From: an uncultured Clostridia bacterium
GTDB taxonomy: Bacteria > Bacillota > Clostridia > Oscillospirales > JAAYOS01
Direction: 5' to 3'
NCBI GenBank assembly: GCA_947593925.1
Contig: CANQDU010000003.1
Coordinates: forward strand, 179,359-243,358
DNA length: 64,000 bases
In this document: one piece after another, positions 41,686 to 61,172 of the stretch
How positions within the stretch are numbered: position 1 is the stretch's first letter
Layout: each line of letters opens with the position of its first letter
Notes under the pieces: model-generated
Databases searched by the model: none
Told to the model about the DNA's origin: nothing
What the model saw: the letters and a program-made list of their open reading frames with translations, nothing else
Program-made: the position numbers and the translations under genes

Positions 41686-43680
41686 ATGAAAGCCGAACAC
41701 AGGATACTGTTTGAGGAAACAAGTGTCGGAAAAATGACGATGAAGAACCGCTTCGCTATGGCTCCGATGGGTCCGCTCGGGCTTGGGGACGCGGACGGCG
41801 GCTTCAACCAGCGCGGCATCGACTACTACACCGAGCGCGCGAAGGGCGGCACCGGGCTCATCATCACCGGCGTGACGTTTGTAGATAACGTCGTCGAGGA
41901 GCACGGTATGCCGAACTGCCCGAGCCCCACCTACAACTCCATCCAGTTTGTCCGCACCGCGCGCGAGATGACCGAGCGCATCCACGCTTACGGCTCAAAG
42001 GTGTGGCTCCAGATGTCCGCCGGATTCGGACGGGTGACTATACCCACAAACCTCGGCGAATATCCTCCGGTCGCTCCGTCGCCGATAATGCATCGGTGGC
42101 TCGACAAGGTCTGCCGCGAGCTCACAAAGGACGAGATTCACACCATCGTGAAGAGCTTCGGGGACGGCGCGTATAACGCCAAGCGCGCCGGCTTTGACGG
42201 CGTGGAGATACACGCCGTCCACGAGGGGTACCTGCTCGACCAGTTCGCCATATCCTTCTTCAACTACCGCACGGACGAGTACGGCGGCAGCCTCGAGAAC
42301 CGTCTGCGCTTCGCGCGCGAGGTCGTAGAGGAGATAAAGCGCCGCTGCGGGGAGGACTTCCCCGTCGCCCTCCGCTACAGCCCGAAAAGCTTCATCAAGG
42401 ACTGGCGCAAGGGCGCTCTGCCGGGCGAGGAGTTCGAGGAGAAGGGCCGCGACCTGCCGGAGGGTGTCGAGGCGGCGAAGCTCCTCACGGAGTACGGCTA
42501 CGACTGTCTCGACGTCGATGTCGGCAGTTACGACGCGTGGTGGTGGAGCCATCCCCCGATGTATCAGAAGAAGGGTCTCTACATCGAGTATGCAAAGCTC
42601 GTGCGTGACGCCGTCTCCGTCCCGGTGATATGCGCGGGACGTATGGACGACCCGGACATGGCGGCGCGTGCCGTCACGGACGGCGCGTGCGACATAGTGT
42701 CGCTCGGGCGTCCGCTCCTCGCCGACCCGGACTATGTGAACAAGCTCCGCGCGGGGCGTGTGGAGTCGATACGCCCCTGCCTCTCCTGCCACGAGGGCTG
42801 CATGGGAAGGATACAGGAGTTCTCCGCGCTGAACTGCGCCGTCAACCCAGCGTGCTGCCGCGAGCGTGCGGCGCGCCTCACCCCCGCAGCAAAGCCGAAG
42901 AAGGTCCTCGTCGTCGGCGGAGGTCCCGCCGGCTGCGAGGCGGCGCTCGTCCTCGCCGAGCGCGGGCACACTCCGGTGCTCTGCGAGGCGGGAAGCGTCC
43001 TCGGCGGCAACCTCATCCCCGGCGGCACGCCCGACTTCAAGGAGGACGACCGCGCGCTCGCAAAGTGGTTTGCGCACGAGCTCGCGGAGCGCGGCGTCGA
43101 GGTGCGGCTCAACACCCGCATGAGCGCGAAGGACATCCTCGCGGAGAAGTTTGACGCGCTCGTTCTCGCGACCGGTTCGCGTCCTAAGACTCTCCCGCTC
43201 GAGGGCGGACATGTCCTCACGGCGGAGGACGTGCTTCTCGGCAAGGCCGACCCGGGAAAGAAGACGGTCATCGTCGGAGGTGGACTTGTCGGGTGTGAGA
43301 CCGCGCTGTGGCTGAAGAAGAAGGGCGTCGCGGTGACGATAGTCGAGGCGCTGCCGAAGCTCCTCGCGGTCAACGGCCCCCTCTGCCACGCGAACAGCGA
43401 AATGCTCGAGGCGCTGATACCCTTCAGCGGGATAGAGACTGTCTGCGGCGCAACGCTCTCCGGCGTCGACGCAGATGGCGCTTCCGTCACGAAGGACGGC
43501 GAGAAGACGCACATCGATGCCGACTCGGTGATACTCTGCATCGGCTACCGGAGCGAGAATTCGCTGTATGACGCGCTCCAGGACAAGGTCGCGGAGATAT
43601 ATCGGATAGGCGACGCGAACCGCGTCGCGAACATCATGTACGCCATATGGGATGCGTATGAGGTGGCAAGCAACATATAA
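41686..43680 (+). CDS. NADH:flavin oxidoreductase/2,4-dienoyl-CoA reductase-like Fe-S flavoenzyme (OYE + FAD/NAD domains)
   Basis: OYE barrel, CLSCHEGCMGR..NCAVNPAC Fe-S cysteines, VVGGGPAGCEAA and VIVGGGLVGCETA Rossmann motifs. Confidence 0.92.
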   Translation: MKAEHRILFEETSVGKMTMKNRFAMAPMGPLGLGDADGGFNQRGIDYYTERAKGGTGLIITGVTFVDNVVEEHGMPNCPSPTYNSIQFVRTAREMTERIHAYGSKVWLQMSAGFGRVTIPTNLGEYPPVAPSPIMHRWLDKVCRELTKDEIHTIVKSFGDGAYNAKRAGFDGVEIHAVHEGYLLDQFAISFFNYRTDEYGGSLENRLRFAREVVEEIKRRCGEDFPVALRYSPKSFIKDWRKGALPGEEFEEKGRDLPEGVEAAKLLTEYGYDCLDVDVGSYDAWWWSHPPMYQKKGLYIEYAKLVRDAVSVPVICAGRMDDPDMAARAVTDGACDIVSLGRPLLADPDYVNKLRAGRVESIRPCLSCHEGCMGRIQEFSALNCAVNPACCRERAARLTPAAKPKKVLVVGGGPAGCEAALVLAERGHTPVLCEAGSVLGGNLIPGGTPDFKEDDRALAKWFAHELAERGVEVRLNTRMSAKDILAEKFDALVLATGSRPKTLPLEGGHVLTAEDVLLGKADPGKKTVIVGGGLVGCETALWLKKKGVAVTIVEALPKLLAVNGPLCHANSEMLEALIPFSGIETVCGATLSGVDADGASVTKDGEKTHIDADSVILCIGYRSENSLYDALQDKVAEIYRIGDANRVANIMYAIWDAYEVASNI

Positions 43681-43733: not shown

Positions 43734-43975
43734 CCAATTTCCCGCGAAGCCGCCGGACAGAGCGAAGCTCTGCCGGCGGCAACACTCCGCTACGCAATTC
43801 CCAAACGCTCCGTTGGAGCGTTTGGGAGCCCTTCCGATTGAAATGCTCGGCGGAAATGAATTCCGCCTGCGCAAATTCGGCGCTACACGCCGAATTTAAC
43901 CGCGCGAACAGGCGCGGACGCCGCCTTTGGCGGCGTTTACAGTCGGGCGCGGTATTGGTTCCGCACGGCACATTG

Positions 43976-44146: not shown

Positions 44147-44701
44147 ATGCGCAGCTATGTCAAAAATCTGACCCTTTCGGCCATGTTTATCGCTATCGGC
44201 TTTGTTCTTCCCTTCCTCACGGGACATATCCCGCAGATAGGGGCGATGCTCTCGCCGATGCACATTCCTGTCTTTCTCTGCGGACTGATATGCGGGTGGC
44301 CCTACGGCGCGGTCGTAGGATTTCTCCTTCCGCTCAGCCGCTCGCTCATCCTCGGGATGCCGCCGCTCTACCCGACGGCGCTCGCGATGTCGTTCGAGCT
44401 CCTTACCTACGGACTCGCGAGCGGCCTCATATACCGCCTTCTGCACCGCCGCGGAATGCTCGCGGTGTACATAGCGCTCGTGGGCGCGATGCTCGCGGGA
44501 CGCGCGGTCTGGGGCGTCGCGCAGGTGATACTTCTCGGTATCGGCGGGAACGCCTTCACCTGGCAGGCATTTATGGCGGGCGCGTTTATTAACGCCGTCC
44601 CCGGCATAATCCTCCATCTCATACTCGTACCCGCGATAATGTTCGCGCTCGACCGCACAAAGCTCGTACGCTTTGAAAGCGTCGCGGCAAATCGCGAGTA
44701 A
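44147..44701 (+). CDS. ECF transporter S component-like membrane protein
   Basis: 184 aa; MRSYVKNLTLSAMFIAIGFVLPFLTGHIPQIGAMLSPMHIPVFLCGLICGWPYGAVVGFLLPL; RBS GAGGTG. Confidence 0.82.
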   Translation: MRSYVKNLTLSAMFIAIGFVLPFLTGHIPQIGAMLSPMHIPVFLCGLICGWPYGAVVGFLLPLSRSLILGMPPLYPTALAMSFELLTYGLASGLIYRLLHRRGMLAVYIALVGAMLAGRAVWGVAQVILLGIGGNAFTWQAFMAGAFINAVPGIILHLILVPAIMFALDRTKLVRFESVAANRE

Positions 44702-59194: not shown

Positions 59195-59941
59195 TTACTC
59201 GGCTGCTTCCTCGGTCTCGGTCTCATCGGCGGGGGCGTTCTCGTCAAGAGTGACCTCCTCGCCCTGACGTCCCTCCTGGACGGCGTTGGCCATGGTCTGG
59301 CTGATGAGCTTGATGGCGCGGATAGCGTCGTCATTGCCGGGGATGACGTAGTCGATCTCGTCCGGGTCGCAGTTGGTGTCGACTATGGCGACGACCGGGA
59401 TGCCGAGCTTCTTCGCTTCGGCGATGGCGTTGCGCTCCTTGCGCGGATCGACGATGAACAGCGCGCCGGGGAGCTTAGACATATCCTTGACGCCGCCGAG
59501 GTAACGCTCGAGCTTCTCTATCTCGAGCTGGAGACCCGCGACTTCCTTCTTGGGGAGCATGTCGAACGTGCCGTCCTCCTGCATCTTTTTGAGCTGGTTG
59601 AGACGGGCGATGCGCTGACGCATGGTTTTGAAGTTGGTGAGCATACCGCCGAGCCAACGGGCGTTGACGTAGTACATGCCGACGCGGCTAGCCTCCTCGC
59701 GGATGGCCTCCTGCGCCTGCTTCTTGGTGCCGACAAAGAGGATGGACTCACCCTCCGCGGCGAGGTCGCGCACAAAGTAGTACGCCTCCTCGAGCTTCTT
59801 GACGGTCTTCTGAAGGTCGATGATGTAGATACCGTTGCGCTCGGTGAAGATGTACGGAGCCATCTTCGGGTTCCAGCGGCGGGTCTGGTGTCCGAAGTGG
59901 ACGCCTGCCTCCAGAAGCTGCTTCATGGATACGATTGCCAT
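59195..59941 (-). CDS. rpsB: 30S ribosomal protein S2
   Basis: [32 protein letters not shown]. Confidence 0.97.
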
Positions 59942-60104: not shown

Positions 60105-60500
60105 CGCGGGAAAAAGTTTGCGGGCTGCGCCCGCAAACTTTTTCCCGCGAAGCTGTCGGACAGGGCGGAGCATTCCCAAACGCTCCTTCGGATCGTTTGG
60201 GAGTCCTTTCAATTTAAATGCTCGGCGGAAATGAATTCCGCCTGCGCGAAGTTGGCGGCAAAGCCGCCAACTTCAACCGCGCGAACCGGCGCGGTTTCCG
60301 CCTTCGGCGGAAAATCGACGCACGCTCCGCGAGAGGAGTTTTCCTTCCATTAGCAGAAAGTAGGGACGTCGGCGCGAAGCGCCGAGGTCTGATGCGCCCG
60401 GTAGATGGTCGGATGCGGTATAGGTTCGAGGGCGCATTGTACACGCCGCCGGAAAAAACGGATTTGACCTTTTTTCGCCGCCTGCGGCGGCGAAACTCTG
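60105..60500 (+). repeat. Multi-hairpin repeat family R1, copy 2 (extended)
   Basis: Perfect 21-bp stem hairpin 60105-60149; R1 core; GAAGTTGGCGGC/GCCGCCAACTTC; TTTCCGCC/GGCGGAAA; TTTCGCCGCC/GGCGGCGAAA. Confidence 0.8.
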
Positions 60501-60596
60501 CGAGGCTTTGGTCGGGACGTCGGCGCTTCGCGCCTTCGTCCCGACATTGTAAAGCTGTCAGAACAGCCGCTTCTTCTCCTTCGGCGGCTTGGGTTT

Positions 60597-60726
60597 GAAG
60601 CTTTCCCAAAAAGTCCTGCGGACTTTTTGGGAGCCCTTTCAATTTAAATGCTCGGCGGAAATGAATTCCGCCTGCGCGAAGTTGCTTGCCTGTGGCAAGC
60701 AACTTCAACCGCGCGAACCGGCGCGG
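60597..60726 (+). repeat. R1 copy 3
   Basis: CCCAAAAAGTCC/GGACTTTTTGGG; R1 core; GAAGTTGCTTGCC/GGCAAGCAACTTC; CCGCGC/GCGCGG. Confidence 0.85.
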
Positions 60727-60770
60727 AAGCCTTAGAACAGTCTTTTCTTCTCCTTCGGCGGCTTGGGTTT

Positions 60771-60900
60771 GAAGCTTTCCCAAAAAGTCCTGCGGACTTT
60801 TTGGGAGCCCTTTCAATTTAAATGCTCGGCGGAAATGAATTCCGCCTGCGCGAAGTTGCTTGCCTGTGGCAAGCAACTTCAACCGCGCGAACCGGCGCGG
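60771..60900 (+). repeat. R1 copy 4
   Basis: Essentially identical to copy 3; abuts the ylmC stop. Confidence 0.85.
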
Positions 60901-60905
60901 AAATA

Positions 60906-61172
60906 TCAGAACAGCCGCTTTTTCTCCTTCGGCGGCTTGGGCTTGAAGTCGAAGTCTACGAGGACGATGTCGTCCCCGATGCGGCAGATGGACTCCCACG
61001 GGATGACGTACTCGTCCCCGCCGAAGAGCGAGAACCCGCCGCCCGGAACCGTCACCGCCACGACGCGGCCGCACTCGGTATCGACGAGCACGTCCATGAT
61101 ATATCCGAGCCGCGCGCCGTCGCGCACGTTTATTACTTCCTTGCAGCGCAGGTCAGCCACCTTGCAGTTCAT
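60906..61172 (-). CDS. ylmC: YlmC/YmxH-family PRC-barrel protein
   Basis: MNCKVADLRCKEVINVRDGARLGYIMDVLVDTECGRVVAVTVPG. Confidence 0.9.
   Translation of the reverse strand: MNCKVADLRCKEVINVRDGARLGYIMDVLVDTECGRVVAVTVPGGGFSLFGGDEYVIPWESICRIGDDIVLVDFDFKPKPPKEKKRLF

Follow-up and report, generated by a model that had tools for sequence, protein, structure and literature searches.

A tandem array of ylmC gene ends and hairpin repeats, probably a record of earlier ends left by recombination

Downstream of ylmC, the last 43 nt of the gene are repeated twice, at spacings of 174 and 174 bp, and this array is probably a 'fossil record' that recombination has left of earlier ylmC ends, built up around a hairpin repeat, here termed R1. 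The window, by which we mean the whole stretch of 64,000 nt that was analyzed (G000:C3:179359-243358), belongs to a draft assembly of 1.87 Mb in 19 contigs; this source genome (G000) was compared within a set of five genomes of the genus, one per species (G000–G004), all of them MAGs or draft assemblies. The array itself is confirmed as a real feature of the sequence (Table 1): TRF detects it with a score of 719, each end copy, read in gene direction, encodes FKPKPPKEKKRLF followed by a stop codon, and the repeat unit consists of the 43-nt gene end plus 131 nt. The ylmC product matches PF05239 in a profile search (E=1e-14), the next gene downstream is presumably rpsB, encoding ribosomal protein S2, and the neighbor order around the array and rpsB is also kept in L002 and L008. 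Two extra end copies at an exact 174-bp spacing had been described in an earlier note made from the letters of this DNA, and both are indeed present; what the note called "R1 core units" between the copies is a stretch of 131 nt that represents one intact R1 element, not several.

Table 1. Features of the ylmC array and its surroundings (positions refer to the window).
Feature	Position	Strand	Basis or detail
ylmC, 88-aa PRC-barrel protein, host gene	60906..61172	minus	ORF; genus orthologues
ylmC 3′ end at the gene	60906..60948	minus	last 43 nt
R1 hairpin element, unit 1	60775..60905	minus	CAAAAAGTC...GACTTTTTG terminal-hairpin subtype; strong hairpins
Middle displaced ylmC 3′ end	60732..60774	minus	FKPKPPKEKKRLF, stop TAA
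R1 hairpin element, unit 2	60601..60731	minus	identical to unit 1 over 128/128
Distal displaced ylmC 3′ end	60558..60600	minus	stop TGA, then CAGC as in the G004 empty site
Third R1, same intergenic region	60169..60294	plus	without ylmC end copy; 84% identical to the array R1s
rpsB (ribosomal protein S2, presumed), next gene downstream of array	59195..59941	minus	ORF translation

Whichever two of the three ylmC ends are compared, every difference is silent, as the earlier note had claimed: 6/6 between gene end and middle copy (TGA/TAA included), 4/4 between middle and distal copy, and 2/2 between gene end and distal copy. Under random substitution, 6/6 silent changes have a P between ~2.5e-5 and 5e-4, according to the transition bias assumed. 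A point absent from that note is where the differences lie. All 9 differences between the gene unit and the middle unit fall in 46 of the 174 positions and none in R1; the two 131-nt spacers are mismatched only within the first 3 nt after the stop codon, and the other 128 nt, R1 proper, are identical.

The ends resemble alleles of different species. The middle copy is 2 nt away from the ylmC end of G001 and 6 nt away from that of its own gene, the gene end is 1 nt away from that of G004, and the body of the G000 gene is no nearer to G001 than to the remaining species. The distal copy is a mosaic, with G001-type variants on its 5′ side and G004-type variants, stop codon and CAGC on its 3′ side; a filled chromosome crossing over with an empty one would leave such a mosaic, which, with so small a number of sites, is weak evidence taken alone. 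The earlier suggestion of an exchange with diverged ylmC alleles is in line with all three patterns. Across the genus, G001 carries a single R1 flanked by two ylmC ends that are identical at 49/49 positions, with junctions common to G000, G004 has an empty site from which R1 is absent, and G003 contains both R1 junction sequences, the displaced copy being missing.

Is this arrangement peculiar to ylmC? When direct repeats were sought around R1 sites, lysC, rplL, and a phage major-head gene proved to have the same order of gene end, R1, end copy, and native downstream sequence, and the portal gene next to the head gene carries 3′-end/R1 arrays in all four R1-bearing species, so that R1 stands beside other duplicated gene 3′ ends, an extension to which the earlier note had pointed. 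The 3′ ends of tRNA-Lys, tRNA-Val, and tRNA-Gly are likewise duplicated with R1 in between. Duplications measure 49 bp at ylmC (in G001), 66 bp at lysC, 61 bp at the head gene, and 112 bp at rplL, ranging overall from about 27 to more than 110 bp, and no core is common to the target sequences (ylmC, lysC, rplL, major head, portal, tRNA-Val, -Gly, and -Lys). Further empty sites were found at lysC in G001 and at rplL in G003 and G004. In G000, the sequence after the displaced lysC end is the native terminator, which in G001 comes immediately after the gene; both G000 copies share G000-specific variants over the first 45 nt, and their last 15 nt differ.

Several side observations concern these loci. 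Inserts at rplL (L100), tRNA-Val (L089/L203), tRNA-Gly (L257), and tRNA-Lys (L086) contain an 11–18 nt exact inverted copy of the target start, through which the insert would form a stem with the target; ylmC, lysC, and the head gene showed no such copy. The phage head/portal cluster (G000:C1:17.9-21.4 kb) is present in four species at ~95% identity, and differences in the head-gene body are almost all silent; a head-gene search returned no such cluster in G002. This cluster is possibly a domesticated phage or a gene-transfer-agent-like cluster. Moreover, short-read assemblies probably undercount gene-end/R1 arrays, because three G001 contigs (C46, C64, and C96) terminate within them.

When ten comparisons between gene ends and copies were pooled, 32 silent and 6 amino-acid differences were counted (17:2 without the portal gene), where ~9.5 silent differences are expected for random substitution with a transition bias of 2 (binomial P ~3e-14, the comparisons being partly non-independent). 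Because 32 silent differences stand against 6 amino-acid differences with ~9.5 silent ones expected, the displaced copies are, as judged from their sequences, not decaying duplicates, and plain decay after tandem duplication, already doubted in the earlier note, is disfavored both by this count and by the all-silent, end-confined differences at ylmC. Not counted among the ten are the portal copies of G000, with one silent and one amino-acid difference, and of G004, with a few silent differences and one amino-acid difference ahead of an alternative stop codon; these were read by eye. Amino-acid changes are present in some displaced copies, among them those of the portal gene in G003 and rplL in G001. 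Three of the six amino-acid differences correspond to residues of the functional G001 gene (portal K/R and L/S in G003; head S/G in G004), and displaced copies resemble G001 alleles at the head gene (LIGE, G004), the portal gene (REAES, G003), and lysC (AGA-GCG). Conversely, the final portal copies in both G001 and G004 retain the N-stop ending (AAT TAG CGCCGGA) used by the G003 gene, while the G001 and G004 portal genes themselves terminate in KQRG-stop.

Gene ends next to R1 may also diverge faster than the genes they belong to. Between G000 and G003, the last 42 nt of ylmC differ at 7/42 positions and the body at 6/225 (P 0.001), and the corresponding values for the head gene are 7/42 and 5/288 (P 0.0002). 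For these two genes the faster divergence of the last 42 nt recurs in most pairwise comparisons; the effect is absent at lysC and weak at rplL. As a control, ends diverged no faster than bodies in 98 orthologue pairs that have no R1 within 150 nt. The automated orthologue-end comparison yielded one gene within 75 nt of R1, and four genes were compared by hand instead.

What, then, is R1? It is a non-coding dispersed repeat of ~130 bp with about four strong hairpins and conserved linkers, for which BLAST returned 79 matches in G000, 69–73 each in G001, G003, and G004, and none in G002. A core pattern has 50–64 exact matches per R1-bearing genome, and its reversed control none. Of 149 distinct cores, 141 have a perfectly paired central stem despite several different stem sequences, and the stems thus change in step. 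One or two exact core matches each in G089, G133, G213, G273, and G294, genomes from other genera of the same order, suggest a wider family that may persist there at low copy; the pattern had no match in viral contigs, and an Rfam search returned nothing above the gathering score, only sub-threshold hairpin matches. Most R1 copies have no clear target duplication, and most of those outside the terminal-hairpin subtype of the ylmC array are also without a displaced gene end; filled/empty alignments at other R1 sites display mosaic hairpin turnover and no clear junctions. A further R1 in the window (43782-43930) separates a gene for a 664-aa oxidoreductase-like protein (41686-43680) from a downstream gene that begins near 44147; a displaced gene end was not seen there. 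In the G001 rplL array (L168), terminator-hairpin triloops of consecutive units are mutually reverse-complementary (TGT / ACA), and R1 loops are similar, a pattern such as loop inversion or template switching across palindromes would leave. An origin from a retroelement, group II intron, or DGR finds no support, reverse transcriptase (PF00078) being detected in 0/5 genus genomes, although a helper encoded elsewhere or in missing parts of the assemblies may exist. Membership in the REP/RAYT class finds none either: Y1 transposase (PF01797, TnpA-REP) was found in 0/5 genus genomes, while the control genomes gave hits.

How could gene ends accumulate around such an element? Filled and empty sites suggest that R1 would have inserted just after ylmC with a direct target duplication of ~49 bp, giving the order gene end, R1, end copy. 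Allele patterns suggest that the short end repeats would subsequently have recombined, between tandem units as well as with diverged alleles of the genus, whereby a second unit would be gained, the working end replaced, and former ends left downstream. The copies would differ almost only silently because each end diverged while it was part of a working gene. The same process would act at lysC, rplL, the phage head gene, and the portal gene, and such recombination would remove units as well as add them. Long duplications of variable length would result from capture at nicks spaced far apart or from template switching at hairpins, and the inverted target-start copies at rplL and the three tRNAs favor fold-back template switching as a putative route there. 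We infer both the order of events at ylmC and horizontal exchange from sequence comparison. As a counterpoint, the R1s are identical at 128/128 positions beside end positions of which 9/46 differ, and R1s of different strain origin would need a recent unit duplication or R1 homogenization to be identical. The amino-acid changes in some displaced copies, and the absent or weak acceleration of end divergence at lysC and rplL, likewise speak against this model. Horizontal exchange is also not separated from retention of ancestral ends combined with intragenomic conversion: the data, from a small number of independent loci, fit either.

Turnover within the genome alone, with one ancestral insertion followed by gene conversion that overwrites copies, would need no transfer between lineages. 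It is in keeping with the G001 ylmC pair, identical at 49/49 although its junctions are common to G000, and the shared 45 nt and differing 15 nt of G000 lysC are what a conversion tract would leave. We nevertheless consider it unlikely to be the whole explanation, as the middle ylmC copy of G000 is nearer to the G001 gene than to its own while the gene body is no nearer to G001, and as amino acids of G001 genes are found in displaced copies of G003 and G004.

One R1 subtype is tied to gene ends, in support of the recombinational record. The terminal hairpin of the A5GTC subtype (CAAAAAGTC...GACTTTTTG) was first spotted at ylmC, rplL, and the head gene, and a search with this hairpin then revealed the portal arrays. 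With up to two mismatches allowed, there are 24 sites in the genus (9 in G000, 8 in G001, 4 in G003, and 3 in G004), and 24/24 lie within 3′-end arrays of four genes (ylmC, rplL, head, and portal). The R1 terminus beside the end copy is constant across targets in this subfamily (...TTTTTGGGGA or GGGAA). That A5GTC R1 is instead a distinct mobile element which is directed to the 3′ ends of genes and, each time it inserts, brings or copies in a synonymous substitute for the end, without a transposase-type target duplication or att site, appears to us a rather remote prospect; if true, it would be a gene-end-swapping element.

A dedicated integrative element carrying a replacement 3′ end, site-specific like the tyrosine-recombinase islands at att sites of tRNA and protein genes, is very unlikely. 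In its favor, R1 adjoins the end that stays with the gene, the displaced end runs into native downstream sequence (the native terminator in the case of lysC), and tRNA 3′ ends are among the targets; yet the targets have no common core, duplications extend from 27 to over 110 bp, and the inserts are non-coding R1s with the same termini at unrelated targets and no integrase gene on their ~130 bp. Of the earlier note's proposal that an insertion reconstitutes the 3′ end of its target, the outcome thus fits, whereas the strict att-site element is not supported in view of the unrelated targets, the duplications of ~27 to >110 bp, and the ~130-bp non-coding insert. Direct selection on displaced ends, be it as donor cassettes for restoring or varying the 3′ end or as parts of an RNA structure, would account for their conserved coding content; we hold it to be very improbable, since most copies encode the same peptide as the gene and supply no variation, and close relatives lack displaced ends (ylmC in G004, rplL in G003 and G004, lysC in G001). 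Little credence can be given to an assembly artefact in which strain variants of the ylmC end were chained via a collapsed R1 repeat: the assembly is a draft, the 128-nt R1s are identical, and G001 contigs end in such arrays, but four assemblies share the architecture, which also occurs at several genes and is bordered by native sequence on either side. Slippage duplication followed by random substitution, although it would explain tandem units of exactly 174 bp, we reject as scarcely credible, given that the 9 differences between gene and middle unit all lie in 46/174 positions and leave R1 untouched, that all-silent change has a P of ~5e-4 or less, and that the pooled count is 32:6.

Among described systems, the closest behavior to that of R1 appears to be that of YPAL/RU-2 in Yersinia, a likeness in described behavior. 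In the review section that covers it, YPAL/RU-2 is a palindromic, mostly intergenic repeat of ~168 bp that has no TA ends and is not A+T-rich, duplicates targets of variable length (3–26 bp) located at or next to dyad symmetry, and is known by filled and empty sites (PMC2229807). R1 is similarly a short dispersed non-coding repeat with variable-length target duplication and both filled and empty sites. Unlike the 3–26 bp of YPAL, however, R1 duplications span ~27 to over 110 bp and include gene 3′ ends, and that section describes no arrays of former gene ends for YPAL (PMC2229807). The bacterial MITEs ERIC, RUP, and Correia are also short, non-autonomous dispersed hairpin repeats with target duplication (PMC2229807), but have terminal inverted repeats and TA ends, whereas R1 has an internal hairpin series and long, variable duplications. 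REP/BIME elements with RAYT share the extragenic hairpins and many copies, but in R1 about four hairpins, joined by conserved linkers, form a set series, and no Y1 transposase was found in the genus genomes. Integrative elements at gene 3′ ends likewise leave the gene with an intact end and shift the old end downstream, the two differing silently; R1 targets, by contrast, lack a shared core, and the insert is small and non-coding. Homology-facilitated illegitimate recombination (PMC3240628), with one homologous and one illegitimate junction, would duplicate a gene end beside new DNA; the R1 terminus, however, is identical at unrelated junctions, and the joint is therefore not random. Neither arrays of former gene ends nor hairpin-flanked silent end copies turned up in the open-access literature that we searched.

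If the ylmC array is the recombinational record we propose, such arrays would constitute a readable archive of earlier gene ends and would allow allele exchange and gene conversion to be measured at single genes. They would also explain one route by which silent divergence becomes concentrated at gene ends. R1 would then stand for a family of repeats that duplicate the 3′ ends of genes, including ribosomal, phage-head, and tRNA genes, and leave their function intact.
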